DNA from: Reyranella massiliensis 521
GTDB lineage: Bacteria; Pseudomonadota; Alphaproteobacteria; Reyranellales; Reyranellaceae
DNA length: 32,949 bases
Assembly (NCBI GenBank): GCA_945862125.1
Contig: CAMAYC010000049.1
Coordinates: 1-32,949 of the forward strand
Reading direction: 5' to 3'
The position numbers were made by a program, and so were the translations under genes. Under the pieces are notes generated by a model. The model saw only the letters and a program-made list of their open reading frames with translations, made no database searches and was not told the origin of the DNA. This document shows positions 538 through 16,140 of the stretch, piece by piece. How positions within the stretch are numbered: position 1 is the first letter of the stretch; each line of letters opens with the position of its first letter.

Positions 538-1983
538 TCAGTTGAAGATCGAGGGATCGATCAACGGCCGGCCGCGCGGGCGCGCGGCCTCGGGGCGGTC
601 GCATTTCTGGAAGAGGCCGCGGCCGGCCGAACCGCTCATCTTGCCCTCGTCCATTACCACCTCGCCGCGCGACAGGGTCATCACCGGATAGCCCGTGAGC
701 TCGCGGCCCTCGTAGGGCGTGTAGTCGCAATTGTGGTGAAGGATCGAGTTGGTGAGGCTCACCTTGCGGGTGGGATCCCACAGCACGATGTCGGCGTCGG
801 CGCCGACGGCGATCGTGCCCTTGCGCGGGTGCAGGCCGTAGATCTTGGCGGGGTTGGTAGAGCTCAGCGCCACGAACTGCTGCAGGGTGAGGCGGCCCTT
901 GTTGACGCCCTCGGAGAAGAGCAGCGGCAGGCGGGTCTCGACGCCCGGCACGCCGTTGGGGATCTTGCGGAAGCTCTGGGACGCGCCCGGCAGCTTCTTG
1001 CCGCGCACATCGTCGTACTTGAAGGCGGCGTGATCCGACGACAGGACCTGGAATGTGCCGGCGGCGAGGCCGGTCCAGATGTGCTCCTGATTGTCCGTGC
1101 CGCGCGGCGGCGGCGAGCACACGCATTTGCTGCCCTCGTCGCCCGGCTTCTCGAAATCCTCCTCGCTCAGGAAAAGGTACTGCGGGCAGGTCTCGCCGTA
1201 GACCCGAAGGCCGCGGGCCTGGGCGCGCTGGATCTCGTGCATGGCTTCCTTGGCCGAGACGTGGACGAGGAGCATCGGCACATCCAGCAGCTCGGCCAGC
1301 GAGATGGCGCGGTGCGTGGCCTCGCGCTCGACCACGAAGGGCCGCGACGTGGCGTGGAACTTGGCGGCCGTCATGCCCTTCAGTTCGAGCCGCTCGGTCA
1401 GCCAGGTGATGCAGTCCGAGTTCTCGGCGTGGATCATCAGCATCGCCTGCTCGCGACGGGCTGCCGCCAGCGCGTCGAGCATCTCGCGGTCGGTGAGCTT
1501 CACGTCGTCGTAGGTCATGTAGACCTTGAACGAGGTGTAGCCGTCGGCGACCAGGGCGGTGAAGTCCTGGCCCATGATCTTGTCGCTGGCATCGGACAGG
1601 ATGACGTGGAAGGCGTAGTCGATCAGCGACTTGCCCTCGGCGCGCTGGTGGTACTTGTTCACTGCGTCGCGCAGCGGCTGGCCCTTGTTCTGGTAGGCGA
1701 AGGGAATGATGGTCGTGGTGCCGCCCGCGGCCGCCGCCCGGCTGCCGCTCTCGAAATCGTCGCAGAACACCGAGCCGTCGGCCGTGTCCTGGTCGAAATG
1801 GACATGGGCGTCGATGCCACCCGGCACGGCGATCAGTCCCGTCGCGTCGATCTCCTTCTTGCCCTTGTCGAGGCGCTCGCCGAGCGCCACCACGCGACCG
1901 GCGGAAACCCCGATATCGCCCTTCACGACGTCTGAAGCCGTGGCGATGGTGGTGTTGCGGATGACGAGATCGTACTCGGCCAT
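538..1983 (-). CDS. hydA: Dihydropyrimidinase / D-hydantoinase
   Basis: A cyclic amidohydrolase of 481 residues that opens the ring of dihydrouracil or dihydrothymine to the N-carbamoyl-beta-amino acid in reductive pyrimidine breakdown. Binuclear zinc-site residues are visible: HVH at 60-62, the probable carbamylated lysine K153 in SFKVYMTY, H185 in IHAEN, H241 in LVHVSA, and D317 in SSDHAAF. Y155 matches the family's catalytic tyrosine. I chose the ATG at 1983 because GGGAGGAAAAT lies just upstream on the minus strand and the protein then begins with the family-like MAEYDLVIRN; a longer frame reaching 2010 has no such support. It is divergent from the nucleoside uptake operon and 117 bases from it. 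This fits degradation of bases released by that operon, although no dihydropyrimidine dehydrogenase or beta-ureidopropionase is in the window. Related hydantoinases and phenylhydantoinases cannot be excluded. Confidence 0.92.
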   Translation of the reverse strand: MAEYDLVIRNTTIATASDVVKGDIGVSAGRVVALGERLDKGKKEIDATGLIAVPGGIDAHVHFDQDTADGSVFCDDFESGSRAAAAGGTTTIIPFAYQNKGQPLRDAVNKYHQRAEGKSLIDYAFHVILSDASDKIMGQDFTALVADGYTSFKVYMTYDDVKLTDREMLDALAAARREQAMLMIHAENSDCITWLTERLELKGMTAAKFHATSRPFVVEREATHRAISLAELLDVPMLLVHVSAKEAMHEIQRAQARGLRVYGETCPQYLFLSEEDFEKPGDEGSKCVCSPPPRGTDNQEHIWTGLAAGTFQVLSSDHAAFKYDDVRGKKLPGASQSFRKIPNGVPGVETRLPLLFSEGVNKGRLTLQQFVALSSTNPAKIYGLHPRKGTIAVGADADIVLWDPTRKVSLTNSILHHNCDYTPYEGRELTGYPVMTLSRGEVVMDEGKMSGSAGRGLFQKCDRPEAARPRGRPLIDPSIFN

Positions 1984-2100
1984 ATTTTCCTCCCGGGCGG
2001 TGGGTAGCAAGGCCCGTGCCGATAAAGGGGCCGCCTATCCCCGCCTAGACCGGGAAAGTCCCAAGGTCCACACTGTTGCAATGCTGCCAAGGGAGACTCG
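1984..2100. promoter_or_regulatory. Divergent intergenic region between hydA and the nucleoside operon
   Basis: These 117 bases separate two divergent transcription units and must hold both promoters. I do not see a convincing -35/-10 pair or a clear palindromic operator by eye. The visible elements are the ribosome binding site of the minus-strand gene (GGGAGG in minus orientation next to 1983) and AAGGGAGA about 10 bases before the ATG at 2101. Shared control of pyrimidine breakdown and nucleoside uptake is an inference from the arrangement. Confidence 0.5.
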
Positions 2101-3105
2101 ATGAAACGCTGGATCGGACCGCTGGTCGCTCTGCTGATGGGCGCCTTGCTGCCCCTGCAGGCTGGAGCGCAGGCCGCCATCAAGCCCGCTGTCGTCTACA
2201 GCACGGGCGGAAAGTTCGATAAATCCTTCAACGAAGGCGTGAGCGCGGGTGCGGAGCAATTCAAGAAGGATACCGGCATCGCCTTCGCTGAGTTCGAGCC
2301 CAGTAACGAGACCCAGTTCGAGCAGGCGCTTCGCCGGTTCGCCCAGCGCGGCCAGGATCCCATCATCGCCGTCGGCTTCTCGCAGGCGGTGGCGCTGGAG
2401 AAGATTGCCAAGGAATTCCCCAACGTCCGCTTCACCATCATCGACAGCGTGGTCAACCTGCCAAATGTTCAGTCGGTGGTGTTCAAGGAGCAGGAAGGCT
2501 CTTTCCTGGTAGGCGTCCTGGCGGCGCTGGCGTCCAAGACGGGCAAGATCGGCTTCGTCGGCGGCATGGACATCCCGCTGGTCCGCAAGTTCCAGTGCGG
2601 CTTCGAGCAGGGCATCAAATACGCCAATCCCAACGCCGAGTTGATCACCAACATGACCGGCACGACGCCGGCCGCCTGGAACGATCCCGGCCGCGGTGCC
2701 GAGCTCGCCAAGGGCCAGTTCGACCGCGGCGTCGACGTGGTCTATGCCGCGGCGGGCTCGACCGGCATCGGAATCCTGCAAGCTGCCAAGGACCGCGGCA
2801 AGCTCGGCATCGGCGTCGATTCCAATCAGAACCACCTGCATCCCGGCACGATGCTGACCTCGATGCTGAAGCGCGTCGACCTCGCCACCTACAACAGCTT
2901 CAAGGCGGCGCAGGCCGGCACCTGGAAGGGTGGCGTCCAGGTGCTGGGCCTCAAGGACGGCGGCGTCGACTGGGCGCTCGACAAGGACAACGAGAAGCTC
3001 GTGACGCCCGATATGAGGGCCAAGGTCGAGGCAGCCAAGGCCGACATAGTGTCGGGCAAGATCGTGGTCCACGACTACATGAGCAACAATTCGTGCAAGC
3101 CCTGA
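2101..3105 (+). CDS. BMP-family nucleoside ABC transporter substrate-binding protein
   Basis: A periplasmic binding protein of 334 residues in the BMP/Med/PnrA family, which binds purine or pyrimidine nucleosides for ABC uptake. The N-terminus is a type I signal peptide (basic MKR, hydrophobic core, probable cleavage after AGAQA near residue 25). There is no lipobox cysteine, so it is probably soluble in the periplasm and not a lipoprotein. Family features include VVYSTGGKFDKSFNEG near the mature N-terminus, IIAVGFSQA, and the VVYAAAGSTGIG segment followed by GIGVDSNQNH. AAGGGAGA precedes the ATG. It is the first gene of a ten-gene run, and its stop overlaps the start of the ATPase gene. The downstream deaminases and phosphorylases support nucleosides over bases or sugars as ligands. 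The exact nucleoside preference is unknown. Confidence 0.93.
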   Translation: MKRWIGPLVALLMGALLPLQAGAQAAIKPAVVYSTGGKFDKSFNEGVSAGAEQFKKDTGIAFAEFEPSNETQFEQALRRFAQRGQDPIIAVGFSQAVALEKIAKEFPNVRFTIIDSVVNLPNVQSVVFKEQEGSFLVGVLAALASKTGKIGFVGGMDIPLVRKFQCGFEQGIKYANPNAELITNMTGTTPAAWNDPGRGAELAKGQFDRGVDVVYAAAGSTGIGILQAAKDRGKLGIGVDSNQNHLHPGTMLTSMLKRVDLATYNSFKAAQAGTWKGGVQVLGLKDGGVDWALDKDNEKLVTPDMRAKVEAAKADIVSGKIVVHDYMSNNSCKP

Positions 3106-4625
3106 CGCCTGCGGCCATCGAGTTTCGCGGGATCGACAAGTCGTTTGGGGTCGTTCATGCCGTTCGTGGCGTGTCGCTCAGGATCGAGGCGGGCACGATC
3201 ACCGGAATCGTGGGCGAGAACGGCGCCGGAAAATCGACGCTGATGAGCATCCTGTACGGCCTCTATCGCGCCGATGCCGGCGAGATATGGGTCGATGGCC
3301 AGCCGGTCGAGATGGCGAGTCCGCGCGACGCCATCGCCCATGGCATCGGCATGGTCCACCAGCATTTCATGCTGATCGACACCTTCACCGTGCTCGAAAA
3401 CATGGTGTTGGGTGCCGAAGGCGGTCTGATGCTGGCGGGCGGCCTCGCCGCGGCACGAGCCGAACTGATGCGGCTGGGCCGCGACTACGGCCTCACGATC
3501 GATCCCGATGCGCGCGTCGCCGATCTTTCGGTGGGCGAGCAGCAGCGGGTCGAAATCCTGAAGGTGCTGTTCCGCGGCGCAAGAACCCTGATCCTGGACG
3601 AGCCCAGCGCCGTGCTGACTCCGCAGGAGACCGATCGCCTGTTCCGCATCCTGCAGACGCTGAAGGACCGCGGCGTCACCGTCGTGCTGATCACCCACAA
3701 GTTGCGCGAGATCGTGGCGGCGACCGACCGGGTCTATGTGATGCGCCGGGGCCAGATCGTGGCCGAGCGCCGCACGGTCGACACCGGGACGGAGGAATTG
3801 GCCGAGCTGATGGTCGGCCGCAAGGTCCATCTCGATCTCCACAAGGCGCCACCCCGGCGGGGTGAGATCCTCCTGCAGGCCGAGCATCTGTCGCTGATTG
3901 ACGGCCGCGGAGTCCAGTTGCTCGACGACATCGGGATCGAGCTGCGCGCCGGCGAGATCGTGGGCATCGCCGGCGTCACCGGCAACGGACAAAGCGAGCT
4001 GCTGCAGGTGTTGGCGGGAATCCGTCCGCCGAGCGGGGGCCGGCTGACGGTCTGCGGCCACGCCCTCGATGCGCGCCGCCCGGGCAACCCCGCGGAAATG
4101 CGCTCCCTGGGCCTCGCCCACGTGCCCGAGGACCGGCTGCGTCAGGGCATGGTCGCGGCGTTCGCGGCCTCGGAAACATCCATCCTGGGCTACCAGGACG
4201 GGCCGCCGTTCACGCGCCATTACCTGCTCGACGGGCCGGCGGTCGACGCCCATTGCGCCCGACTGATGGAGCGCTTCGATGTGCGGCCGCGGTCGCCCAC
4301 TCTGCGGTCGTCCAGTTTTTCGGGCGGCAATCAGCAGAAACTGGTGCTGGCGCGCGAGATCGCGCGCGAACCCAAGGTGCTGCTGGTCGGCCAGCCGACA
4401 CGCGGCGTCGACATCGGTGCCATTGAGTTCATTCATCGCGAGCTCGTGAAGGCACGCGACGCGGGCTGCGCGGTGCTGGTCGTGTCGGTGGAGCTCGACG
4501 AGATTCTCTCGCTGGCCGACCGCATCCTGGTGATGTTCGCCGGCCGTATCGTGGGTGAAGTCGCTCCGGATCGCGCCGACGAACGCCGGCTTGGTCTGAT
4601 GATGGCGGGCGCCGACGCGGCATGA
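3093..4625 (+). CDS. Nucleoside ABC transporter, tandem ATPase subunit
   Basis: A 510-residue protein with two fused ABC ATPase domains, as in the NupO/YufO group that powers BMP-type nucleoside importers. Domain 1 has a Walker A (GENGAGKST, about 41-49), the signature LSVGEQQRVEIL and a Walker B with LILDEPSAVLTP. Domain 2 has a degenerate Walker A (GVTGNGQSE), signature SFSGGNQQKLVLA and VLLVGQPTRGVD, where glutamine replaces the Walker B acidic residue. Sequence before residue 1 in this frame is only the shadow of the preceding gene. The GTG at 3093 gives MQALTPAAIEFRGIDKSFG, places the ATPase fold correctly and overlaps the upstream stop by 13 bases, indicating translational coupling. The ATPase gene ends with ATGA shared with the first permease. 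The asymmetry of the two nucleotide sites is usual for this subgroup. Confidence 0.92.
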   Translation: MQALTPAAIEFRGIDKSFGVVHAVRGVSLRIEAGTITGIVGENGAGKSTLMSILYGLYRADAGEIWVDGQPVEMASPRDAIAHGIGMVHQHFMLIDTFTVLENMVLGAEGGLMLAGGLAAARAELMRLGRDYGLTIDPDARVADLSVGEQQRVEILKVLFRGARTLILDEPSAVLTPQETDRLFRILQTLKDRGVTVVLITHKLREIVAATDRVYVMRRGQIVAERRTVDTGTEELAELMVGRKVHLDLHKAPPRRGEILLQAEHLSLIDGRGVQLLDDIGIELRAGEIVGIAGVTGNGQSELLQVLAGIRPPSGGRLTVCGHALDARRPGNPAEMRSLGLAHVPEDRLRQGMVAAFAASETSILGYQDGPPFTRHYLLDGPAVDAHCARLMERFDVRPRSPTLRSSSFSGGNQQKLVLAREIAREPKVLLVGQPTRGVDIGAIEFIHRELVKARDAGCAVLVVSVELDEILSLADRILVMFAGRIVGEVAPDRADERRLGLMMAGADAA

Positions 4626-5722
4626 GGGCGTCCCGTCGTCCGTTGCCGACCTGGGCGGAGATCGTGCTGCTGCCGCTGGTCAACATCGTGCTGGCCTTCC
4701 TCGTCGTCGGCGTGATCGTAGCGATCATCGGCGTCGATCCCTTCCATGCGCTTCAGCTCCTGGTCGTGGGCGCCATCGGCTCGTCCGAATCGATCGGCTA
4801 CACGCTCTACTACGCCACCAACTTCGCCTTCACCGGGCTCGCGGTGGCGCTGGCCTTCCATGCCGGCCTGTTCAACATCGGCGGCGAGGGCCAAGCGTAT
4901 ATCGGCGGCCTGGGCTGCGGTGTCGCCATACTGGCGCTCGACGGCTGGCTGCCGGCCTGGCTGCTGATCCCGCTGGCCATTGCCGCCTCGGCCCTGTTCG
5001 GTGCCGCGTGGGCTGCCGTGCCGGCCTGGGCACAGGCCTGGCGCGGCAGCCACATCGTCATCACCACCATCATGTTCAATTTCGTGGCCTCGGCGCTGAT
5101 GGTCTACCTGATGGTGAACGTGCTGATCGCGCCGGGCTCGATGACGCCACAGAGCCGTACCTTCGCGCCCTCGGGACGGGTTCCCGCGATGCACGACGCG
5201 CTGGCCGCGATCGGCATCACCGTGGCGCCGTCGGCACTCAACCTCACGATCGTGCTGGCGGTGCTGTGCTGCGTCGGTGTCTGGGTGTTCCTGTGGCACA
5301 CGCCATGGGGCTATGCGCTTCGCACCATGGGGCACAATCCCGAGGCCGCTGTCTATGCCGGCACCAACCTCAGGCGCATGACCATGCTTGCCATGTGCCT
5401 CTCGGGCGCGTTGGCGGGCTTCGTGGGCGTCAACGAGTTGATGGGCGTGCACCACCGCATCGTGCTCGACTTTCCCGCGGGCTACGGCTTCGCCGGCATT
5501 GCCGTCGCCCTGATGGGGCGCAGCCATCCGCTGGGCATCGCGCTGGCGGCGCTGCTGTTCGGAGCGCTTCAGCAGGGCGGGGCCGAACTCGCCTTCGAAA
5601 TCCCCTCGATCACCCGCGAGATGGTGGTGGTGATCCAGGGCTTGGTCATCCTGTTCTCGGGTGCGCTGGCCTACATGCCGCGGCCGTGGCTGCAATTCCT
5701 GTTCGCGCGCCGGGCGTCGTGA
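4622..5722 (+). CDS. Nucleoside ABC transporter permease (first subunit)
   Basis: An inner-membrane permease of 366 residues from the BMP-linked branched-chain/ribose-type permease family (YufP/NupP-like). It has a hydrophobic N-terminal segment (IVLLPLVNIVLAFLVVGVIV) and repeated transmembrane helices. The stretches GLFNIGGEGQ near residue 80 and AGFVGVNELMGVHHR are diagnostic for this permease group. The start ATG shares ATGA with the ATPase stop at 4622-4625, and the gene's stop TGA shares its A with the next ATG at 5722. Together with the second permease it should form the heterodimeric channel. Membrane spans are judged by eye. High confidence in family, moderate in substrate. Confidence 0.92.
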   Translation: MRASRRPLPTWAEIVLLPLVNIVLAFLVVGVIVAIIGVDPFHALQLLVVGAIGSSESIGYTLYYATNFAFTGLAVALAFHAGLFNIGGEGQAYIGGLGCGVAILALDGWLPAWLLIPLAIAASALFGAAWAAVPAWAQAWRGSHIVITTIMFNFVASALMVYLMVNVLIAPGSMTPQSRTFAPSGRVPAMHDALAAIGITVAPSALNLTIVLAVLCCVGVWVFLWHTPWGYALRTMGHNPEAAVYAGTNLRRMTMLAMCLSGALAGFVGVNELMGVHHRIVLDFPAGYGFAGIAVALMGRSHPLGIALAALLFGALQQGGAELAFEIPSITREMVVVIQGLVILFSGALAYMPRPWLQFLFARRAS

Positions 5723-6642
5723 TGGACGAAGCTTTCTCCTTCGTCCTGCTGATGCTGGCCTCGACGCTCCGGGTCGCTACGCCGTTGGTGCTCTGTGCCA
5801 TGGGCGGGCTGTTCTCTGAAAAGAGCGGCATCGTCGATGTCGGTCTGGAGGGCAAGATGCTGATGGCGGCCTTCTTTGCCGCCGCGACTGCGTCCGTAAC
5901 CGGCTCGGTCTGGGCGGGTGTGGCCGCGGCCATCCTGGCGGCGGAAGCGCTGGCGCTGCTGCACGGCCTCGCCTGCATCACCTATCGGGGCAACCAGGTG
6001 GTAAGCGGCGTCGCCATCAACATCCTGGCGGCAGGGCTCACCGTCGTCCTCGGCACTGCCTGGTTCGCACGTGGCGGCCAGACGCCGCCGCTCCTGGACG
6101 GCCAGCGGTTGATGCCGCTTTTCTTGCCGAGGGCGGGGGACAATGTCCTGGTCTACGTGGCGCTGCTGTCGGTGCCGCTCACCTGGTGGGTCATCGCCCG
6201 CACGCGCTTTGGGCTCCGCCTGCGCGCCGTGGGCGAAATGCCGCTCGCCGTCGATGCCGCTGGCCTCTCGGTGGCCTGGTTGCGCTATCGGGCGGTGCTG
6301 CTCTGCGGGTTGCTCGCTGGCCTCGCCGGCGCCTATCTGTCGATCGGCCAGAATGCAGGCTTCAGCCGTGACATGACGGCGGGGCAGGGTTTCATTGCGC
6401 TGGCGGCCATCATCTTCGGCAAATGGCGGCCGTTTCCGGCGTTCGGGGCCTGCCTGATCTTCGGCCTGCTCGATGCCATGGCCATCCGGCTCCAGGGCGT
6501 CCGCGTGCCCGGCGTAGGCGAAGTTCCGGTGCAACTGATCCAGGCCATGCCATATCTTCTCACCATGTTCCTGCTGGCCGGCTTCATCGGCCGTGCGATC
6601 GCTCCCAAGGCGGCCGGCGTGCCCTACGAGAAAGAGCACTGA
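5722..6642 (+). CDS. Nucleoside ABC transporter permease (second subunit)
   Basis: A 306-residue integral membrane permease, the partner of the preceding subunit (YufQ/NupQ-like). Family features are the early ATPLVLCAMGGLFSEKSGIVDVGLEGKM region, NQVVSGVAINILAAG, and a C-terminal GFIALAAIIFGKW segment. The ATG at 5722 overlaps the upstream stop (TGATG); the GTG three bases earlier is possible but less likely. The frame extends far upstream only as an antisense-free shadow of the first permease and has no family-like content there. It is followed by one spacer base and the cytidine deaminase ATG, so transport and catabolic genes are tightly linked. Confidence 0.91.
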   Translation: MDEAFSFVLLMLASTLRVATPLVLCAMGGLFSEKSGIVDVGLEGKMLMAAFFAAATASVTGSVWAGVAAAILAAEALALLHGLACITYRGNQVVSGVAINILAAGLTVVLGTAWFARGGQTPPLLDGQRLMPLFLPRAGDNVLVYVALLSVPLTWWVIARTRFGLRLRAVGEMPLAVDAAGLSVAWLRYRAVLLCGLLAGLAGAYLSIGQNAGFSRDMTAGQGFIALAAIIFGKWRPFPAFGACLIFGLLDAMAIRLQGVRVPGVGEVPVQLIQAMPYLLTMFLLAGFIGRAIAPKAAGVPYEKEH

Positions 6643-6643: not shown

Positions 6644-7039
6644 ATGGACGAACTGCTCCATCTGGCGCGCCGCATGATGCTGCGTGCCCATGCGCCCTAC
6701 TCGAAGTTCCATGTCGGCGCCGCCGTGCGTGCGGAGGACGGTTCGATCCATGGCGGCTGCAACGTCGAGAATGCCGCCTATCCGCAGGGGCTCTGTGCGG
6801 AGGCTTCGGCGATCGCAGCCATGGTGGCGGCTGGTCACAAGCGCCTCCTGGAATGCCTTGTCGTGGGTCCCGGTCCGGAGGTCATCACGCCCTGCGGCGG
6901 CTGCCGCCAGAAGCTGCGCGAATTTGCCGGCAACGATCTGCCTGTCCATCTCTGCGGCCCCGACGGCCTGCATCGCACCGTGACGCTGGGCCAGCTCCTG
7001 CCGATGTCCTTCGGCCCGCATCAGCTCGGCAAGCCGTGA
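6644..7039 (+). CDS. cdd: Cytidine deaminase
   Basis: A 131-residue cytoplasmic cytidine/deoxycytidine deaminase that converts (deoxy)cytidine to (deoxy)uridine. The length matches the small homotetrameric type. Zinc ligands are C51 in the CAEAS motif and C84 and C87 in PCGGC, with E53 as the proton shuttle. FHVGAAV and GGCNVENAAYPQGLCAE are diagnostic. I chose the ATG at 6644 because it starts just after the permease stop and gives MDELLHLARRMM; a longer frame to 6593 runs into the permease. Its last bases GTGA are shared with the start of the purine nucleoside phosphorylase. In this operon it feeds imported cytidine into the uridine/deoxyuridine pool for phosphorolysis. Confidence 0.95.
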   Translation: MDELLHLARRMMLRAHAPYSKFHVGAAVRAEDGSIHGGCNVENAAYPQGLCAEASAIAAMVAAGHKRLLECLVVGPGPEVITPCGGCRQKLREFAGNDLPVHLCGPDGLHRTVTLGQLLPMSFGPHQLGKP

Positions 7040-7827
7040 GCGACGTCGTCGCCCGCGCGGCACCGGGCTTCCGGCCGAAGGTGGCCGTGGTGCTGGGCTC
7101 GGGTCTTGGCGGTTTTGCCGATGAGGTGAAGAAGGTCGCCACCATCCCCTATGGCGAGTTGCCGGGCTTCCCGCAGACGACGGTCGGCAGCCATGCCGGG
7201 CAATTGGTGCTGGGCCATGTCGGTTCGACGCCTGTTGCCGTGTTGCAGGGCCGCGCGCACTACTATGAGCGCGGCCGCGCCGACGAGATGAAGGGTGCCA
7301 TCGACACCTTGGCCGGCCTCGGCTGCGGGACACTGCTCCAGACCAACGCCGCCGGCAGCCTGCGCCTCGACATGCCGCCGGGCTCGACCATGATCATCAC
7401 CGACCACATCAACTTTACCGGGGTCAATCCGCTGTTCGGCGTGGGATCGGGCGACAATCGTTTCGTCGACATGGTCGATGCCTACGATCCCGCCTTGGTC
7501 AAGAGCCTGCTCAAGGCCGCCAAGCAGGCCAACGTACTTTGCCATGACGGCGTCTATATGTGGTTCAGCGGTCCCAGTTTTGAGACGCCAGCCGAAATCC
7601 GCGCGGCCCGCATCCTGGGCGCTGACGCCGTGGGCATGTCGACGGCACCGGAGACGATCTTGGCACGCCACGCCGGCATGAAGGTGGCGGCGGTGTCGCT
7701 GATGACCAACTACGCCGCAGGTCTCGTCCCCGGCACACTCGCTCACGAGCAGACGATCGCCGTTGCGAGTTCGGCCTCGGGTGATGTCCGCCGCCTGCTG
7801 CGGTTGTTCCTCGAGCAATACGCCTAG
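7036..7827 (+). CDS. punA: Purine nucleoside phosphorylase (trimeric type)
   Basis: A 263-residue inosine/guanosine phosphorylase of the trimeric PNP class, which splits purine nucleosides with phosphate into base and (deoxy)ribose-1-phosphate. The phosphate-binding loop GSGLGGF lies at 21-27, followed by the GRAHYYERG motif, TNAAGSL, the SGPSFETPAEIR segment, VGMSTAPE and the base-binding TNYAAG. The start is GTG at 7036, giving a GTGA overlap with the cytidine deaminase stop. The frame upstream of this is only the shadow of that gene. Adenosine is usually a poor substrate for this class, which makes the adenosine deaminase later in the operon (adenosine to inosine) a sensible partner. Distinction from methylthioadenosine phosphorylase rests on the class motifs and the context. 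Confidence 0.93.
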   Translation: MSDVVARAAPGFRPKVAVVLGSGLGGFADEVKKVATIPYGELPGFPQTTVGSHAGQLVLGHVGSTPVAVLQGRAHYYERGRADEMKGAIDTLAGLGCGTLLQTNAAGSLRLDMPPGSTMIITDHINFTGVNPLFGVGSGDNRFVDMVDAYDPALVKSLLKAAKQANVLCHDGVYMWFSGPSFETPAEIRAARILGADAVGMSTAPETILARHAGMKVAAVSLMTNYAAGLVPGTLAHEQTIAVASSASGDVRRLLRLFLEQYA

Positions 7828-7832: not shown

Positions 7833-9155
7833 ATGCTGCCGCAGGAGATCATCCGCCGAAAACGCGACGGCCACGAACTGTCGGCGTCGGAGATCGCCTT
7901 CATCGTGCGTGGCATCCACGACGGCAGCCTGAGCGAGGGCCAGGTCGCCTCTTTTGCCATGGCGGTGTTTTTCCGCGGCATGACAGTGCCGGAACGCGTG
8001 GCGCTCACCCTCGGCCTTGCCCACTCGGGCATCATGCTCGACTGGCGGGACCTCGCGCTGCCCGGTCCCGTGATCGACAAGCATTCGAGCGGCGGCGTCG
8101 GCGACAAGGTGAGCCTGATGCTGGCGCCGATCGTAGCGGCCTGCGGCGGCTTCGTGCCCATGATCTCCGGCCGCGGCCTCGGCCACACTGGCGGCACACT
8201 CGACAAGCTCTCGGCGATCTCGGGCTATGAAACCCAACCCGACATCGCGACCTTCCGCCGGGTCGTCCGTGAGGTCGGCTGCGCCGTGATCGGCCAGACC
8301 GACGAGCTGGCACCGGCCGACCGGCGGCTCTACGCGGTGCGCGACGTCACCGGCAGCGTCGAGTCGATACCACTGCTGGTGAGTTCAATCCTGTCGAAGA
8401 AGGTCGCCGAGGGCCTCGACGGGCTGGTGATGGACGTGAAATGCGGCTCCGGCGCCTTCTGCAACACCGAGGAGATGGCGCGCGACCTGGCGCAGAGCCT
8501 CGTGGCCGTGGCCAACCAGGCGGGCCTCCCCACCATCGCGCTGATCACCGATATGGACCGGGTGCTGGGCCGCGAGGTCGGCAACGCTCTCGAGGTCATG
8601 GAGACAGTGGCCTATCTGACCGGCCGCGATACGCGCGAGCCGCGCTTGCACGAGGTGACGATGGCCCTCGCCGGCGAGATGCTGGCGCTGGGCGGCTTCG
8701 TGCCCGACGTTGCCGCCGGTCGGGCGCGGGCCGAGGCGGCGCTGGCCGACGGCCGTGCGGCGGAGGTTTTTGGCCGCATGGTGTCGGCTTTGGGTGGCCC
8801 GGGCGATTTCGTCGACCATGCCGGCCGCTACCTGTTGCAGGCGCCGGTGATGAAAGCCTGCACCGCCGAGCGTTCCGGCCATATCGTGGGCATGGATGCG
8901 CGCCAGGTCGGTATTGCCGTGGTGGCGCTTGGCGGCGGTCGCGCCCATGCCGACGACGCGATCGATCCTTCCGTGGGCCTCAGCGAAGTCACCGACGTCG
9001 GCGTGCCGATCCGGGCCGGCAGTCCGCTCTGCATGGTCCACGCCGCGAGCGAGGCCGATGCCGATGCGGCTATTGCGCTGGTGCGCCAAGCCATCCGCAT
9101 CGGTGACGCGCCGGTTGCCGAGCGGCCGGTCGTCATGGAACGCGTCGTCCTATGA
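7833..9155 (+). CDS. deoA: Thymidine phosphorylase
   Basis: A 440-residue pyrimidine nucleoside phosphorylase (the same length as E. coli DeoA) that converts thymidine or deoxyuridine and phosphate to base and deoxyribose-1-phosphate. It has the alpha N-terminal domain, the phosphate loop KHSSGGVGDK at 83-92, the family signature around SGRGLGHTGGTLDKL at 112-126, MDVKCGSGAF, and the C-terminal PYNP-type domain. It starts five bases after the PNP stop and ends with an ATGA overlap onto the dioxygenase gene. The free pyrimidine product could be passed to the divergently encoded dihydropyrimidinase pathway. A broader uridine/thymidine specificity is possible. Confidence 0.94.
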   Translation: MLPQEIIRRKRDGHELSASEIAFIVRGIHDGSLSEGQVASFAMAVFFRGMTVPERVALTLGLAHSGIMLDWRDLALPGPVIDKHSSGGVGDKVSLMLAPIVAACGGFVPMISGRGLGHTGGTLDKLSAISGYETQPDIATFRRVVREVGCAVIGQTDELAPADRRLYAVRDVTGSVESIPLLVSSILSKKVAEGLDGLVMDVKCGSGAFCNTEEMARDLAQSLVAVANQAGLPTIALITDMDRVLGREVGNALEVMETVAYLTGRDTREPRLHEVTMALAGEMLALGGFVPDVAAGRARAEAALADGRAAEVFGRMVSALGGPGDFVDHAGRYLLQAPVMKACTAERSGHIVGMDARQVGIAVVALGGGRAHADDAIDPSVGLSEVTDVGVPIRAGSPLCMVHAASEADADAAIALVRQAIRIGDAPVAERPVVMERVVL

Positions 9156-9964
9156 GCGAGCCCGATCTGGGAGCTTACGAGCGCGACGGCTTTCTGGTGC
9201 TGGAAGGTTTCCTGCCGCCGGCCGACTGCGACGCGCTGCAGGCGCGTGCGGCCGAGCTGGTGGCCGCCTTCGATCCCGGTCCAGCGCGCACGGTCTTCTC
9301 GACCCGTGACCAGGGCCATGCCCGGGATCGCTACTTCCAGGAATCGGGTGGCGCAGTTCGCTTCTTCTTCGAAGGGCAAGCGACCGACCAGCCGGTGCCC
9401 CTGGCCTTGAACAAGATCGGTCACGCGCTGCACGATCTCGATCCGGTCTTCGATCGGGTCTCGCGCCAGCCACGGCTGGCCAGTCTCGCCCACGCGTTCG
9501 GCTTCGTCCGGCCGCTGCTGCTGCAATCCATGTATCTCTTCAAGCAGCCGCGGATCGGCGCCGAGGTCGACTGGCACCAGGACGCCACCTACCTGCATAC
9601 GCGGCCCTCGACCGTGACGGGCTTCTGGGTCGCCCTCGACGACGCCGACCAGGACAATGGCTGCCTGATGGCGCTGCCGGGCGCCCATCGGGGGCCGCTG
9701 CGCCAGCGGTTTCAGCGCGAGGGCGACCGGATGGTCACCCAGACGCTGGACACCACGCCGTGGCCCTCGGTCGCGCCGGTGGCGCTGGAGGCCCGGCGCG
9801 GTACGCTGGTCGTTCTGCATGGCCTGCTGCCGCATGCCAGCGCGCCCAACCATTCGTCCCGCGCTCGGCACGCCTATGCCTTGCATCTGATCGACGGGCA
9901 GGCCGATTATCCGGCAGACAATTGGCTGCAACGGCCAGATCTGCCGTTAAGAGGTTTTGCGTGA
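9152..9964 (+). CDS. PhyH-family Fe(II)/2-oxoglutarate dioxygenase
   Basis: A 270-residue protein of the phytanoyl-CoA dioxygenase (PhyH) superfamily, non-haem iron oxygenases that couple 2-oxoglutarate decarboxylation to substrate hydroxylation. The iron-binding facial triad is visible as H142 and D144 in WHQDATYL and H228 in LLPHAS, followed by a plausible 2-oxoglutarate-binding arginine (R237 or R239). An N-terminal YERDGFLVLEGFLPP stretch is typical. It sits between deoA and add with ATGA and GTGA overlaps, so it is an integral part of the nucleoside operon. Its sequence alone resembles PHYHD1-like proteins of unknown substrate. From context I infer that it may oxidise a nucleoside, base or modified sugar, but no residue proves this. 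Confidence 0.88.
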   Translation: MSEPDLGAYERDGFLVLEGFLPPADCDALQARAAELVAAFDPGPARTVFSTRDQGHARDRYFQESGGAVRFFFEGQATDQPVPLALNKIGHALHDLDPVFDRVSRQPRLASLAHAFGFVRPLLLQSMYLFKQPRIGAEVDWHQDATYLHTRPSTVTGFWVALDDADQDNGCLMALPGAHRGPLRQRFQREGDRMVTQTLDTTPWPSVAPVALEARRGTLVVLHGLLPHASAPNHSSRARHAYALHLIDGQADYPADNWLQRPDLPLRGFA

Positions 9965-10920
9965 TTCCCAAGGTGGAACTGCATTGTCATCTCGAGGGTT
10001 CGATCGCGCCCGCGCTCGCGCGCGAGTTGGCTGCCCGCAACGGCCTCGACCTGCCCAGTGGGCTGTTCGGGGCCGATGGCCACTATGTGTGGCGCGACTT
10101 CTGGAGTTTTCTTGCCGCCTACGATCGGGTCTGCACCGTGTTACGCACGCCGCGTGACTTCGGCGACGTGATCTATTCCTACCTTGCCGGCGTGGCGGCC
10201 GAGGGGGCGGTCTATGTCGAGATGTTCTGCTCGCCCGAGCGGCCGGCGGCACTGGGCATCTCTTATGCAGCCTGGCTCGAGGCGCTGGCCGAGGGCATCG
10301 ACCGCGCCCATCGCGAATTCGGCATCGTGGGCCGCATCATCATCATCTGCATCCGCCATCTCGGGCCCGAGCGTGCGCTTGCCATGGCTGAGGCCATGGT
10401 GGCGGAGCCGCATCCCTATGTCGTGGGCTTCGGCATGGGCGGAGACGAGGCCAAGTTCACGCCGGCTGATTTCGCGCCGGCCTACCGGCTGGCCCACGAC
10501 AAGGGCTATGGCTGCACCGTCCATGCCGGCGAGGTGGTCGGCCCGGAAAGCGTATGGGCTGCGATCGACTGCCTGCCGGTGACCCGGATCGGCCACGGCG
10601 TGCGCTCGGCCGACGATACCGCGCTGATGGCGGAGCTGGCGCGTCGCGGCACGGTTCTCGAGGTCTGCCCAGGCAGCAACGTCGCCCTGGGGCTGTATCC
10701 CGACCGGGCCTCTCATCCGTTGCATCGCTTAATCGCCGCCGGTGTTCCCGTTACCCTCAATTCCGACGATCCGCCATTCTTCCATACGACGCTCGGCAAC
10801 GAATACGACAAGGCGGATCTCGACGATGCAGCGTTGAGGCATATCGCGCGAACAGCGGTCGATGCTTCGTTCGCTGATGAAGCGACCAAACAAAGACTGT
10901 TGAAGGAGATCGGGTCATGA
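9961..10920 (+). CDS. add: Adenosine deaminase
   Basis: A 319-residue amidohydrolase-fold enzyme that deaminates adenosine or deoxyadenosine to inosine or deoxyinosine. Zinc ligands and catalytic residues are visible: HCH at 8-10 (HxH), H188 and E191 in HAGEV, H212 in IGHGV, and D269/D270 in NSDDPP. The start is GTG at 9961, overlapping the dioxygenase stop as GTGA and giving a family-like VELHCHLEGS N-terminus. The end overlaps the phosphatase start as ATGA. In the operon it converts adenosine into a substrate for the purine nucleoside phosphorylase. Adenine deaminase-type specificity within the same family cannot be excluded by eye. Confidence 0.93.
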   Translation: MIPKVELHCHLEGSIAPALARELAARNGLDLPSGLFGADGHYVWRDFWSFLAAYDRVCTVLRTPRDFGDVIYSYLAGVAAEGAVYVEMFCSPERPAALGISYAAWLEALAEGIDRAHREFGIVGRIIIICIRHLGPERALAMAEAMVAEPHPYVVGFGMGGDEAKFTPADFAPAYRLAHDKGYGCTVHAGEVVGPESVWAAIDCLPVTRIGHGVRSADDTALMAELARRGTVLEVCPGSNVALGLYPDRASHPLHRLIAAGVPVTLNSDDPPFFHTTLGNEYDKADLDDAALRHIARTAVDASFADEATKQRLLKEIGS

Positions 10921-11774
10921 TCGCAAGGATTGCCCTGGCGCTCGGCGCCACCCTTTCCGTGATTCTGTCGTCGGGTATGGTACGGGCGCAGGAAGCAACG
11001 CCGCACAACGACATGTTGCTGGCGACCCTGTGGACGCAGCGGTCCATCGAGTTCAAGGGCAATGCGCTCACGGTCTTCGCATTGGCCCGCATTCGCCTCG
11101 ACGAGGCCCTGGCCGACAAGAGCTGGACGGCGTCGCCGGCCGAGCAGAAAGCCGACTATCAGAACCTGCCGCCCGCCATCATTCTCGATATCGACGAGAC
11201 GCTGCTCGACAACTCGCGCTATCAGGTCTGGATGCTGAAGAATAACCAGAGCTTCAGCACCAAGACCTGGAACCAGTTCTGTGCCGCCCAGGTATCGACC
11301 GCGGTCCCGGGGGCGCTGGAGTTTACCAAGTACGCCGACTCCAAAGGCGTGAAGATCTTCTACATCACCAACCGCGGCGCCGAGACCGAGAAGGACACCC
11401 GTGAGAACATGGCCAAGCTCGGCTTCCCGATGGGCGGCAACGTCGACACGTTCCTGATGCAGGGCGAGAAGCCGGAGTGGGGCAGTGCCAAGGGCACGCG
11501 CCGCGCCGCGGTGACCAAGGATTATCGCGTCCTGCTCAACATCGGCGACAACTTCGGCGACTTCGACGATCGCTACCGGACGAGCGAAGCCGATCGCCAG
11601 AAGGCTTTCGATTCGGACATGGCCTACTGGGGACGCCAGTGGCTGGTAATCGGCAATCCGACCTACGGCTCGTTCGATACGGCGCCGTTCGGCCACGACT
11701 TCAAGAAGCCTCGCGAGGAGCAACGCAAGGCCAAGTGGGACGTGCTCGAATCGTGGGGCGGCCCCACGCCTTAG
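10917..11774 (+). CDS. Exported HAD acid phosphatase / 5'-nucleotidase, e(P4) family
   Basis: A 285-residue exported phosphatase related to lipoprotein e(P4)/class C acid phosphatases, HAD-fold enzymes that dephosphorylate nucleoside monophosphates outside the cytoplasm. A signal peptide covers about residues 1-24 (hydrophobic core, then VRAQE); I see no clear lipobox cysteine. The HAD nucleophile motif is DIDETLLDN with D91 and D93. FYITNRGAE supplies motif II, and GDNFGDFDD near residue 205 supplies the acidic motif IV. WTQRSIEFKGNALTVFALAR matches the family's conserved helix. It is the last gene of the nucleoside operon (ATGA overlap with add). Likely role: releasing nucleosides from nucleotides in the periplasm for the BMP-dependent importer. 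Its stop is one base from the stop of the convergent carbohydrate ATPase gene. Confidence 0.9.
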   Translation: MIARIALALGATLSVILSSGMVRAQEATPHNDMLLATLWTQRSIEFKGNALTVFALARIRLDEALADKSWTASPAEQKADYQNLPPAIILDIDETLLDNSRYQVWMLKNNQSFSTKTWNQFCAAQVSTAVPGALEFTKYADSKGVKIFYITNRGAETEKDTRENMAKLGFPMGGNVDTFLMQGEKPEWGSAKGTRRAAVTKDYRVLLNIGDNFGDFDDRYRTSEADRQKAFDSDMAYWGRQWLVIGNPTYGSFDTAPFGHDFKKPREEQRKAKWDVLESWGGPTP

Positions 11775-11775: not shown

Positions 11776-12867
11776 CTAGATCGCCGCCTCTGTTTCGGCG
11801 TCGAACAGATGGAGCCGCTCGGGCTTCAGCGCCAGCTTGAGCTTGTCGTGGGCACGCACGCGCAGCGTCGGATCCACGCTCGCCACCATCAGGGCCGGGC
11901 CGGCGCGCATATCGAGCAGGATCTCCGAGCCCAGCTGCTCGACCACCTCAACCTCGGCCTCGAAGCAAAATTCCGGTGCATCGGCTGCGGTCGCGATGTG
12001 GATGTCCTCCGGCCGGATCCCGAGCGTTGCCTTGCGGCCGGCCTTGGCCCTGGCTCGTGCCGCCAGGGCGCCCGGCAGGCCGATCCTGAGGCCTGTCGCT
12101 TCGGCAATCGGACTGCCGCCGTTTTCCACCAGCGTAACGTCGGCGAAGTTCATCGCCGGTGAACCGATGAAGCCGGCCACGAACTTGTTGGCCGGGGTGT
12201 TGTAGAGTTCCAGCGGCTCGCCGACCTGCTGGACCCAGCCGTCTTTCATCACCACCACGCGGTCGCCGAGTGTCATTGCCTCGACCTGGTCGTGGGTGAC
12301 GTAGACCGAGGTCACCGCCAGACGCTCGTGCAGTTTCTTCAATTCGACCCGCATCTGCACGCGCAGCTTGGCGTCGAGATTGCTGAGTGGCTCGTCGAAC
12401 AGGAACACCGCGGGGTCGCGCACGATGGCGCGGCCCAGTGCCACTCGCTGGCGCTGGCCGCCCGACAGCTGCCGCGGCTTGCGCTGCAGGAGGCTCTCGA
12501 TGCCGAGAATGGATGCGGCGTTGTTGATGCGCCTCTCGATTTCGGACTTCTCGAACTTCCGCATCTTGAGGCCGAAGGCCATGTTCGAGGCCACGCTCAT
12601 GTGCGGGTAGAGCGCGTAATTCTGGAACACCATGGCGATGTCGCGGTCCATCGGCGGCACTTCGTTGACCACGTTGTTGGCGATGCGGATCTCGCCCGAG
12701 GTGATGGCTTCCAGTCCGGCGATCATGCGCAGCGTCGTGGTCTTGCCGCAGCCGGAGGGTCCGACGAAGACCATAAATTCCTTGTCGCGGATCTGCAGAT
12801 CGACGTCCTTCACGACATGTGTCGTGTCGAACATCTTGTTGAGCTTGTGGAGGCTGACCTCGGCCAT
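11776..12867 (-). CDS. CUT1-type carbohydrate ABC transporter ATPase (UgpC/MalK-like)
   Basis: A 363-residue ATPase that energises a sugar-type importer. Walker A is [10 protein letters not shown], the Q-loop lies in [12 protein letters not shown], the signature is [14 protein letters not shown], Walker B is [12 protein letters not shown], and the switch histidine is in YVTHDQ. A C-terminal OB-fold-like regulatory domain follows ([10 protein letters not shown]), as in MalK/UgpC. This is the last gene of the minus-strand cluster, six bases after the permease stop at 12874. The RBS is weak. Substrate identity is open: UgpC-like ATPases are often shared among several CUT1 systems. Confidence 0.92.
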
Positions 12868-12873
12868 GACGCG

Positions 12874-13725
12874 TTACCCCTTGACCGACCCGGTAAGGCC
12901 CGAGACGTAGTGTTCGACGAAGAATGAATAGACGATTGCCACCGGAATCGAGCCCAGCAGGGCGCCGGCCATCAGCGGCCCCCAGAAGAACACGTCGCCG
13001 CGGATCAGCTCCGAGGTGACCCCGACGGGGACGGTCTTCTGGTCCGGAGAGGACAGGAAGACCAGGGCGTAGATGAACTCGTTCCATGACAGCGTGAAGG
13101 CGATGATGCCCGACGACAGGATGCCGGGCACGGCGACCGGAATGATGATGTAGACCATCGCCTTCCAGCGCGAGGCGCCGTCGATGCGGGCGCACTCCTC
13201 AAGTTCCTTCGGGATGGCCTTGAAGTACCCCATCATCAGCCAGGTGCAGAACGGGATCAGGAACGTCGGATAGGTCAGGATCAGCGCCCACGGGGTGTCG
13301 CCGAGTTTGAAGTTCCGGATGATCTCCGCCAGCGGAATGAACAACAGCGTCTGTGGCACCAGATAGGTGATGAAGATCGCCGTGCCGAGGCCGCCGGCAT
13401 AGGGGAAGTTGAGGCGGGCCAGCGCATAGCCCGCCAGCACGCCGCAGAACAGCGAGATCAGCGTCGACACCAGCGCGATGAACATGGTGTTAAACATCCA
13501 GCGCGCGAAGCTGGTCTCCTCGAACAGATAGAGGATGTGCTCGAGAGTCGGATTGTTGGTCCAGAACGGCATGTAATTGGGCGCGTTCCACGGCAGGTAG
13601 AGTTCGCCGTCCGGCCGGAAAGTCGTCACGATCATCCAGTAGAACGGAAACAGCAGGACGAAGACGAACAGGATCAGCGGGAGATTATAGAAGACCCACC
13701 GTCTCCAGAGTGCACCCTCGATCAT
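12874..13725 (-). CDS. Carbohydrate ABC transporter permease (MalG-like)
   Basis: A 283-residue inner-membrane permease with about six hydrophobic helices, starting with NLPLILFVFVLLFPFYWMIVTTFRP. The cytoplasmic EAA loop that docks onto the ATPase is seen as EECARIDGASRWKAMVYIIIP, with the expected G-containing core. The C-terminus (FVEHYVSGLTGSVKG) is typical for MalG-like subunits. It follows the MalF-like gene by 30 bases and precedes the ATPase by six bases on the minus strand, so the four genes are probably one transcript. Confidence 0.93.
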   Translation of the reverse strand: MIEGALWRRWVFYNLPLILFVFVLLFPFYWMIVTTFRPDGELYLPWNAPNYMPFWTNNPTLEHILYLFEETSFARWMFNTMFIALVSTLISLFCGVLAGYALARLNFPYAGGLGTAIFITYLVPQTLLFIPLAEIIRNFKLGDTPWALILTYPTFLIPFCTWLMMGYFKAIPKELEECARIDGASRWKAMVYIIIPVAVPGILSSGIIAFTLSWNEFIYALVFLSSPDQKTVPVGVTSELIRGDVFFWGPLMAGALLGSIPVAIVYSFFVEHYVSGLTGSVKG

Positions 13726-13755
13726 GTCAGCGGGTCTCCGGGCTATTCGGGGGGC

Positions 13756-14685
13756 TCATCGGGTTTCGACCCGGCGGATGTAGAGCAGCTGCACGACCAC
13801 GATGATGAACAGGAACGGGAACATCGCGAGCGATATCGCGGCACCCTCGGCCAGCAACCCGGTGCCGATGCCGAGCTGGTAGGCGTAGGTCGCGAAGAGG
13901 TGCGTAGCGTTGGCCGGTCCGCCGCCCGTCATGACGTAGACCAGCTGGAAATCGGCGAAGGTCTGGATGACCGAGAACAGCACGACGACCAGTGTTACCG
14001 GCATGAGCAGCGGCCAGGTGACGTGCCAGAAGCGCTGCCAGGGACGGGCGCCGTCGATGGCGGCGGCCTCGTGGAGCTCCGGGCTGATGGTCTGCAGGCC
14101 GGCCAGCAGGGTGATGGCGAAGAACGGCACGCCGCGCCAGATATTGATGACGATGATCGACGTCATGGCGAGGTCGGGGTCGCCCAGCCAGTTGATGCGG
14201 GTGGTGATGAAGCCCAGCTGGAACAGCGTCCAGTTGATGACGCTGAAGGTGGGATCGAACATCCACTTCCAGGCGAAGGTCGAAAGCACCGTGGGGATGA
14301 TGAACGGCAGCAGGATGAAGGCGCGGATGATCGCCTTGCCCCTGAAATGCCGGTTGAGCAGGATCGCCAGCCACAGGCCAAGCGCCAGCTTGAACACCGT
14401 CGTCACGCCCGTGTACCAGAATGTGTTCCACACGGTCGTGCGGAAGATGCTGTCGTTCCAGATCTTGTGGAAGTTCTTCAGACCGACGAATTCGCCGGGC
14501 TGGCCGACGCGCGTGCTGCTGAGTGACAGCATGACGCCTTCGAAGAAGGGGTAGGCGATGAACAGACCGAGCAGGACCGCTGTTGGCGCGAGCAGAGCCA
14601 ACGCGAGCCAGCGTTCGTCTTCAAGCTTACGCAACCGCGGGGAGAGCCGTTTGCCCTCCGCCGCCGGAAGTGATGTCACCGCCAT
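13756..14685 (-). CDS. Carbohydrate ABC transporter permease (MalF-like)
   Basis: A 309-residue inner-membrane permease. A basic cytoplasmic N-terminus precedes the first helix (LALLAPTAVLLGLFIAYPF), and the EAA loop reads HEAAAIDGARPWQRFWHVTWP near residues 215-235. It pairs with the MalG-like permease downstream. It begins 32 bases after the substrate-binding protein stop on the minus strand. Its 3' end contains a short CGGGT/ACCCG inverted repeat (13760-13773) with no evident U-tract. Substrate unknown, probably a mono-, di- or polyol sugar as for other CUT1 systems. Confidence 0.93.
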   Translation of the reverse strand: MAVTSLPAAEGKRLSPRLRKLEDERWLALALLAPTAVLLGLFIAYPFFEGVMLSLSSTRVGQPGEFVGLKNFHKIWNDSIFRTTVWNTFWYTGVTTVFKLALGLWLAILLNRHFRGKAIIRAFILLPFIIPTVLSTFAWKWMFDPTFSVINWTLFQLGFITTRINWLGDPDLAMTSIIVINIWRGVPFFAITLLAGLQTISPELHEAAAIDGARPWQRFWHVTWPLLMPVTLVVVLFSVIQTFADFQLVYVMTGGGPANATHLFATYAYQLGIGTGLLAEGAAISLAMFPFLFIIVVVQLLYIRRVETR

Positions 14686-14717
14686 GGACGGGTTACCCTA
14701 AGCGCAGTTTCCCGGCC

Positions 14718-16037
14718 TTAGACGTAGACCTTCTTGAGCTCAGCTTCGGCCCACTTCATCGCGTCCTCGGGGGGCATGCCCTGCACCGCCTTGGCGTACA
14801 TGTCGGTGATGATGTACTTCGAGAGGACTTCCTGGGCCTTGGCGTCCGGTGGTCCGGCGTTGCCGATGGCCTGGCCGAGGCGGGCGGCAACCTTGAAGGG
14901 CGCCATGACCGGATCGACGTCCCACAGCTTGTCGGACTCCCACTTCGCTGTGCACGGCGTCGCGAAGCCCTTCTGCGATTCGAAGAACTTCCTGTAGTTC
15001 GCCTCGGTGTGGAGCCACTTCAGGAACTCCTTCGAAGCGTCCTGGTTCTTCGAGTACTTCATCAGCATGTTCGATTGCAGCAGATGGAATCCGAACTGTC
15101 CCGCCGGCCCCTTGGGCAGGGGCGCATGCTGGATGTCCTTGCTCATCGGCAGGCCCTTTTCCGTCTTGTACTGGTCGGGCTTGCGCAGGGTCTCGATGTA
15201 GATCGAGGCGCCGTTCAGGGTCGCGGAAATGGTCTGCGACAGGAATGCGCGGTTGTTGTTGGTGTCGTCCCAGGCAAGGCCACCCTCGTCATGGGCATCC
15301 TTCCAGAAACCCTGCATGAACTTGATCGATTCGAGCGTTTCCTTGCTGTTGAGCACCACCTTGCCGCTGGCGTCGATCTCCTTGCCGCCCCACGACCACA
15401 GGTACGGATAGGTGAAGCCCGGTGCGTCGCCGAATGTATGGCCCAGCGTCTGGCCGAGCGGACGTCCCTTGGCCTTGAGTTTCTTGCCGGCCTCACGGTA
15501 GGAATCCCACGTGTCGGGGAACTTGGTGACGCCGACTTCGTCGAACCACGATTTGCGGTAGGCGATCATGCCGCCGATCACGGCCCATGGCATGCCCATG
15601 TAGATCTTGCCGTTGCTGCAGATCGCCTTTGCGTACGGGAAGATGCCGCCTTCCCGCTTGCCGACTTCCTCGGCGATCGCGCTGACGTCGACGACGCTGT
15701 TGGCATAGAGATGCGTATAGCTGTTGAATGACATGATCAGATCGGGACCAGCGCCAGACTGGATGCCGGCGGTGATACGCGGCTGAAGATCGTTGCCGTT
15801 CACGGTCTCGAGGTTGATTTTGACGCCCAGCGCCTTTTCGGCCTCCGGCATCATTTCCTTCTTCAAGAGCGCATCGGTGGCCGGCACGAAGTCGACCCAT
15901 TTGAGCCAGTGAACCGTTCGCTGCTGGGCGAAGGCCGGCATACGGCCGGTTGCAAGAATGGCGGCCATGCCGCCCATCGACGCCGCGGCTGCACCGCCGG
16001 CAAGCTTAAGCACGCTACGACGCTTCGTCTTGGCCAT
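14718..16037 (-). CDS. Tat-exported family 1 ABC substrate-binding protein
   Basis: A 439-residue extracellular solute-binding protein (family 1, carbohydrate type). The N-terminus MAKTKRRSVLKLAGGAAAA carries a twin-arginine motif (KRRSVLK) before a hydrophobic stretch and AFAQQ cleavage site, so export should be by the Tat route as a folded protein. I chose the ATG at 16037 because GGGAGGACAAC precedes it; the frame extends to 16118 but that part has no signal-like sequence. Mature features include VHWLKWVDFVPATDALLKK and GAGPDLIMSFNSYTHLYA. It leads the minus-strand transporter cluster. A TATAAC hexamer about 45 bases upstream of the ATG (minus strand) could be a -10 element, but no matching -35 is clear. 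Confidence 0.92.
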   Translation of the reverse strand: MAKTKRRSVLKLAGGAAAASMGGMAAILATGRMPAFAQQRTVHWLKWVDFVPATDALLKKEMMPEAEKALGVKINLETVNGNDLQPRITAGIQSGAGPDLIMSFNSYTHLYANSVVDVSAIAEEVGKREGGIFPYAKAICSNGKIYMGMPWAVIGGMIAYRKSWFDEVGVTKFPDTWDSYREAGKKLKAKGRPLGQTLGHTFGDAPGFTYPYLWSWGGKEIDASGKVVLNSKETLESIKFMQGFWKDAHDEGGLAWDDTNNNRAFLSQTISATLNGASIYIETLRKPDQYKTEKGLPMSKDIQHAPLPKGPAGQFGFHLLQSNMLMKYSKNQDASKEFLKWLHTEANYRKFFESQKGFATPCTAKWESDKLWDVDPVMAPFKVAARLGQAIGNAGPPDAKAQEVLSKYIITDMYAKAVQGMPPEDAMKWAEAELKKVYV

Positions 16038-16140
16038 GTTGTCCTCCCAAGGACTGCCGCCACGTTGGACGGCTTCGTTGTTATAGCTATCGTAGGCATC
16101 GGGAGGGCCGCGGCGCAAGCCGAATAGCGGAAGCTCGACT

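Follow-up and report, generated by a model that had tools for sequence, protein, structure and literature searches.

The PhyH gene and its surroundings

The window analysed here is a 32,949-nucleotide stretch of DNA from Reyranella massiliensis 521 (assembly GCA_945862125.1, contig CAMAYC010000049.1, positions 1-32,949). Matches to Pfam and NCBIfam models reveal an operon on its forward strand that runs, in order, from a BMP binding protein through an ATPase, two permeases, cdd, PNP, deoA, a PhyH-family gene and add to a phosphatase. A dihydropyrimidinase gene diverges from it.

538..2010, reverse strand: dihydropyrimidinase (pyrimidine base catabolism), divergent; NF009941, 741.3 bits, above cut-off
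2101..3105, forward strand: BMP/PnrA-like substrate-binding protein of the importer; PF02608, 222.8 bits
3099..4625 (start provisional), forward strand: ABC transporter ATPase; PF00005 in two stretches, inside the open reading frame 2595-4625
4622..5722, forward strand: ABC permease 1 of the BMP-type importer; PF02653
5719..6642 (start provisional), forward strand: ABC permease 2 of the BMP-type importer; PF02653, inside the open reading frame 5008-6642
6644..7039, forward strand: cdd, cytidine deaminase; NF004064, 145 bits, above cut-off (scanned from 6641)
7036..7827, forward strand: purine-nucleoside phosphorylase (PNP); TIGR01698, 307 bits against a cut-off of 302.6
7833..9155, forward strand: deoA, thymidine phosphorylase; TIGR02643, 632 bits against a cut-off of 570.7
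9152..9964, forward strand: PHYHD1-family Fe(II)/2-oxoglutarate dioxygenase, predicted 2'-O-methylnucleoside demethylase; PF05721, alignment with PHYHD1, and fold
9961..10920, forward strand: add, adenosine deaminase, GTG start; TIGR01430, 319.5 bits against a cut-off of 216.55
10917..11774, forward strand: acid phosphatase like the lipoprotein e(P4) 5'-nucleotidase (HAD IIIB); PF03767, 137.6 bits

The cdd start is that of the open reading frame, while the PNP start was placed at the GTG at 7036 because of the overlap with the cdd stop. The phosphatase is probably secreted, judging from its hydrophobic N-terminus, and scores 195.7 bits with the e(P4) model TIGR01533, under the cut-off of 216.05. 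Synteny shows that several relatives, too, have a dihydropyrimidinase gene ahead of the operon. A scan for promoters and terminators gave 2 and 3 sites, respectively, against 1.2 and 4.4 in shuffled sequences. Tail to tail with the operon, on the reverse strand, lies an apparent sugar-type ABC importer (11776-16118), whose solute-binding protein (14721-16118) is of the SBP_bac_1 type and whose ATPase and permease were read from translations. Further along the same strand, the region 16180-25234 encodes a ferritin-like protein, an adenylate/guanylate cyclase, a peptide-type ABC importer and a gamma-glutamyltranspeptidase.

The PhyH reading frame is intact, starts with ATG and encodes 270 amino acids, of which residues 9-241 match the Pfam PhyH family (PF05721) at 160.5 bits, the cut-off being 22. 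The four-base overlaps with both neighbours claimed in a preliminary description of this DNA are real: the deoA stop codon TGA (9153-9155) shares ATGA with the PhyH start, and the GTG start of add at 9961 runs over the PhyH stop (9962-9964) in GTGA. A chance insertion or frameshift at the gene was set aside, there being no internal stops among the matches listed. Viral contigs, queried with a single protein and so for close relatives only, gave two pattern matches and no confirmed relative, and one relative (47%) was found among 72,556 plasmid records, in Azospirillum ramasamyi. A phage or plasmid origin was set aside on these counts.

Relationship to human PHYHD1

When the window protein was compared with the PDB using phmmer, human PHYHD1 was the best of 15 matches (E = 1.2e-56, covering residues 4-261), with EvdO2 next (E = 9.7e-16) and human PHYH lower (2a1x, E = 2e-12). 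The window protein and human PHYHD1 share 43% identity. An AlphaFold2 model of the former (58 rows) has a mean pLDDT of 93.4 and a pTM of 0.92, and a fold search with it placed two PHYHD1 structures, 3obz and 2opw, first, each with a TM-score of 0.89 and with identities of 40 and 39%, respectively. Human PHYH came third, with a TM-score of 0.64 and 20% identity. By sequence and predicted fold, then, the window protein is a close relative of human PHYHD1 and a bacterial member of its family.

Two other identities were considered and rejected. Ectoine hydroxylase EctD and human PHYH have the PhyH superfamily fold and metal site in common with the window protein, but the latter scores 24.9 bits with the EctD model TIGR02408 against a cut-off of 336.5, and PHYH falls short of PHYHD1 in both the E-values and the TM-scores given above.

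The preliminary description had looked for precedents to thymine-7-hydroxylase, pyrimidine deoxynucleoside dioxygenase and LipL. These are absent from the 15 PDB matches, which PHYHD1 heads, and PDN2'H is likewise not named among them. This bears on the possibility that the enzyme oxidises nucleoside bases or modified forms of them, whether in the manner of thymine-7-hydroxylase or by N-demethylation, a reaction that would suit both the nucleoside operon and the dihydropyrimidinase gene adjoining it. However, thymine-7-hydroxylase and LipL do not appear among the 15 matches, and PHYHD1 leads the next match by about 40 orders of magnitude, so that we regard base oxidation as extremely unlikely.

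The active site

PHYHD1 was reported in December 2025 in Nucleic Acids Research to demethylate free 2'-O-methylated nucleosides (PMC12709175). According to that paper, PhyH demethylases from human, animals, fungi, plants, viruses and some bacteria are active, the bacterial enzymes assayed being FJS and those of Sphingomonas, Poribacteria and Acidisoma. The FJS reaction is 2-oxoglutarate-dependent and releases formaldehyde. Neither FJS nor human PHYHD1 acts on 2'-O-methylated mono- or triphosphates, and the methylated miRNA substrates tested with FJS, human and plant enzymes gave no activity. Zebrafish without phyhd1 build up free 2'-O-methylnucleosides, and an E. coli strain without such an enzyme could not use 2'-O-methylcytidine (PMC12709175).

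Docking in the same paper brings the ribose into contact with K102, H105, Q139 and W277 of human PHYHD1, while the base stacks on F161, a tyrosine in bacterial enzymes, and S154 touches purines (PMC12709175). In our alignment the four ribose contacts correspond to K88, H91, Q125 and W258 of the window protein. The human F161 is replaced by Y147, which would be base-stacking by alignment, and S154 by D140, in a column that varies widely across the family. The iron triad H142, D144 and H228, described earlier as intact, aligns with H156, D158 and H246 of human PHYHD1. Alongside this HxD...H triad R239 is conserved, by analogy with the family the putative 2-oxoglutarate-binding residue. Model helices at 54-58 and 60-63 lie in the segment that aligns, by eye, with the PHYHD1 helix of human residues Q56-L71, the region being four residues shorter in the window protein.

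Residue conservation was assessed in 140 family rows, which take in the window protein, human PHYHD1 and the best 80 of at least 585 bacterial relatives. K102, H105, Q139 and W277 are kept in 140, 139, 140 and 138 of the 140 rows, respectively, although in 80 of them conservation is partly by selection, because these rows were found with two search patterns that contained three of the residues, one with NKxGH (K102 and H105) and one with QSM..FK (Q139). The other bacterial rows came from a protein search that used no residue patterns. The single row without the histidine of the H91 column belongs to one relative (L066/L112, family f124) with alanine there.

The picture is different for the paralogs in the window's genome, seven of which, out of 15, were aligned. 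The HxD motif, second histidine and arginine are kept in all seven, whereas K102, H105, Q139 and W277 are kept in 0, 0, 2 and 1 of the seven; the K102 column is gapped in four of these rows and the H105 column in five, so part of the contrast reflects a missing or unaligned segment.

Linkage to nucleoside genes in the order

An ortholog of the PhyH gene (E <= 1e-30, 67-100% identity) is present in 67 of 76 genomes of the window's order, a set that includes the window's own genome and belongs entirely to one family. deoA lies within 150 bases upstream at 65 of the 67 loci and add within 150 bases downstream at 66, these gaps being estimated from BLAST ends, and the phosphatase gene was seen at 65. 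The exceptions are a locus at a contig end (L078) and one with wider gaps (L081). An ortholog held so widely, and nearly always in the same place, bears out the earlier view that the gene is no chance insertion. Seven of the nine genomes lacking it are also without a deoA match, four of these being at least 90% complete; in one of the remaining two a contig end truncates deoA, and the other has PNP and deoA without the PhyH gene.

Linkage in more distant genomes

Farther out, linkage was called with tblastn, using markers from the window and from E. coli (E <= 1e-10, at least 60 bits, within 5 kb), and because of these markers and thresholds divergent nucleoside genes are missed in the counts. 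A relative of the PhyH gene occurs in 38 of 385 genomes of Alphaproteobacteria. Among the 34 class genomes outside the window's own family, the gene is linked (a nucleoside-specific gene within 5 kb) in 18 and unlinked in 11, while five have too little flank; the linked ones are spread over 11 of 22 families. Another six genomes, drawn from the phylum, comprise one linked and five unlinked. The best 80 of at least 585 relatives, those nearest to human PHYHD1, divide into 19 linked, 38 unlinked and 23 with too little flank. The 19 include Actinomycetota (four directly after cdd), Gammaproteobacteria, two Woeseiaceae, Dongia, Pelagibius, Hongsoonwoonella and Pseudovibrio, and one (L206) owes its place to a PNP match of 23% some 5 kb off.

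Several layouts are seen in these genomes: the gene may have deoA or deoB on one side and add on the other, stand immediately ahead of a BMP importer, be divergent from the importer, or lie beside rihB and psuG. The synteny of deoA, PhyH and add that the preliminary description proposed to survey is thus conserved in the order, and linkage with nucleoside genes recurs in several layouts elsewhere. Genes like rihB (nucleoside hydrolase) and psuG (pseudouridine-5'-phosphate glycosidase) are found within 5 kb of the PHYHD1 gene in an uncultured alphaproteobacterium (L220) and in another genome of the class, 1.6 Mb in size (L086, genome G235), where they hint at a wider scavenging of modified nucleosides.

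The window's genome has 15 further PF05721 places. Used as controls, none of these 15 loci had a nucleoside-specific marker, with four of them (L228, L234, L240 and L241) having less than 3 kb of flank on one side; the matches seen were only to generic ATPases, plus one 26% dihydropyrimidinase match. In eight other linked genomes, chosen for being linked, 0 of 55 other PF05721 places lay within 20 kb of deoA, the one gene checked, by eye. A Fisher test of 9/9 against 0/70 was set aside because eight of those nine genomes had been picked as linked.

Co-occurrence points the same way. deoA is found in 35 of the 38 class genomes with the PhyH gene, against 59 of the 347 without (Fisher p ~6e-21, with related genomes treated as independent); the other three of the 38 have no deoA match, and deoA is still present in eight of the 11 unlinked class genomes. 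The neighbours of 49 unlinked loci, taken with a rough ORF picker (78 of 98 proteins), fall into 115 Pfam families, of which the 25 most frequent display no nucleoside theme, and the idea of a common theme among them was set aside on that sample. The linkage of the PhyH gene with nucleoside genes is real, though not universal.

Since a pocket directing the 2' position towards the iron could reach C2'-H too, the enzyme might instead hydroxylate C2' of 2'-deoxynucleosides, like Neurospora PDN2'H, or another ribose carbon, to give ribonucleosides. The adjoining deoA in the window's order would accord with this; an Fe/2OG nucleoside 2'-hydroxylase does exist, and the substrates in Table 1 of PMC12709175 include no plain deoxynucleoside. 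Yet deoA is not a constant neighbour, other lineages having in its place a solitary cdd, genes of the BMP importer, or rihB together with psuG, and the family, fold and ribose contacts of the window protein all match the demethylase. Deoxynucleosides, moreover, are usable directly by DeoA and PNP with no such step, as is known of these families. Hydroxylation at C2' is thus, in our estimation, very unlikely.

Phylogeny

A quick LG+G4 tree was calculated from the 140 family rows and seven of the 15 paralogs, FJS being left out. The family rows, human PHYHD1 included, split from the paralogs with an SH-aLRT of 99, although the paralogs sit on long branches, with warnings, and one paralog row (L002) has an untrimmed N-terminus; no meaning attaches to the position of the root within the family. 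The best 80 of the at least 585 relatives confirmed in bacterial genomes span Acidobacteriota, Myxococcota, Bdellovibrionota, SAR324, Actinomycetota, Bacteroidota, Vulcanimicrobiota and Pseudomonadota. In this quick tree, with its one eukaryotic row, human PHYHD1 falls within the bacterial rows, next to a Bdellovibrionota sequence and close to two from Bacteroidota.

Linkage changes state at least 12 times on the tree. Loci away from nucleoside genes, 38 of the best 80 of at least 585 and 11 of 34 at class level, raise the possibility that the enzyme acts on a non-nucleoside substrate and owes its place in the operon to regulation or history. PhyH enzymes are diverse, and there are 15 other PF05721 places in the window's genome. 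Against this, linkage recurs with different neighbours over those many changes of state, deoA co-occurs in most unlinked class genomes (8/11), and not one of the 15 paralog loci is linked. A non-nucleoside substrate consequently seems highly improbable.

Proposed function

PHYHD1 is both the best PDB match of the window protein and a 2'-O-methylnucleoside demethylase (PMC12709175), so that the step encoded is most likely an oxidative O-demethylation. We consider it highly probable that the window protein is a bacterial PHYHD1 that converts 2'-O-methylnucleosides into plain nucleosides and formaldehyde, so feeding Cdd, Add, PNP and DeoA. The analysis shows the gene itself, its family membership, predicted fold, active-site residues, operon linkage and co-occurrence with deoA; its demethylase activity, and the order and origin of its substrates, we infer.

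In the proposed pathway, the 5'-nucleotidase-like phosphatase would strip phosphate from RNA-derived nucleotides outside the cell membrane and the BMP-type ABC importer would take the nucleosides in. Inside the cell the dioxygenase would lift the 2'-O-methyl block, by hydroxylating the 2'-O-methyl group of a free 2'-O-methylated ribonucleoside; the hemiacetal would collapse to plain nucleoside and formaldehyde as 2-oxoglutarate is converted to succinate and CO2. Cdd, Add, PNP and DeoA could then deaminate and phosphorolyse the demethylated products. The published inactivity of the demethylase on nucleotides fits a system in which dephosphorylation comes first, and the failure of the E. coli strain on 2'-O-methylcytidine (PMC12709175) suggests that demethylation would be the gate step. 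Glutathione-dependent formaldehyde dehydrogenase may serve as the sink for the formaldehyde by-product. This enzyme is present in the window's genome (608.5 bits, above cut-off), but it lends weak support to the demethylase reading because it is common, with relatives in 13 of 14 control genomes, three of them above cut-off.

The preliminary description had thought a new nucleoside- or sugar-oxidising step plausible. The nucleoside direction survives one refutation set out there, a lack of conserved linkage with nucleoside genes, but the novelty most likely does not hold, since the probable reaction was published in 2025 (PMC12709175). The bacterial operon context, on the other hand, was not found in print: the open-access literature searched yielded no description of a PhyH gene in a nucleoside operon, and a term search of the main text of PMC12709175 gave no genomic context for FJS or its bacterial relatives.

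Comparison with known enzymes

Human PHYHD1 (2opw, 3obz) and the window protein are alike in family, fold, metal triad, ribose contacts and the helical segment at the cavity mouth; they differ in that the latter is bacterial and lies within a nucleoside operon. FJS, a metagenomic bacterial enzyme compared here by its description, likewise belongs to the PhyH superfamily and presumably catalyses the same reaction, but its cavity-mouth helices are described as coming from C-terminal residues and not from the PHYHD1 helix (PMC12709175). That paper ties conservation of the ribose contacts to the non-bacterial demethylases tested, so FJS and the Sphingomonas, Poribacteria and Acidisoma enzymes may belong to a subgroup other than that of the window protein.

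The nucleoside hydrolases RK9NH and LbNH represent another route to the use of 2'-O-methylnucleosides. They cleave the glycosidic bond with no oxygen chemistry, LbNH leaving 2'-O-methylribose, and RK9NH was found adjoining an aldolase gene (PMC12709175).

Implications

The operon lends genetic support, independent of the 2025 work, to the claim that PHYHD1 acts on free 2'-O-methylated nucleosides. It also offers a simple bacterial setting in which the role of PHYHD1 can be tested, and shows the destination that the demethylated products would have. A broader picture, which we put forward tentatively and on balance somewhat doubt, is that many bacteria have a dedicated route for 2'-O-methylnucleosides of external RNA, made up of nucleotidase, BMP importer, PHYHD1 and salvage enzymes, and that the animal enzyme arose late from within this bacterial family. 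If true, human PHYHD1, with its disease associations, would be a domesticated bacterial nutrient-scavenging enzyme. If the assignment of the window protein is right, the blocking of RNA nucleoside reuse by 2'-O-methylation would be a problem of nutrient access, and bacterial salvage operons would contain an enzyme dedicated to it.
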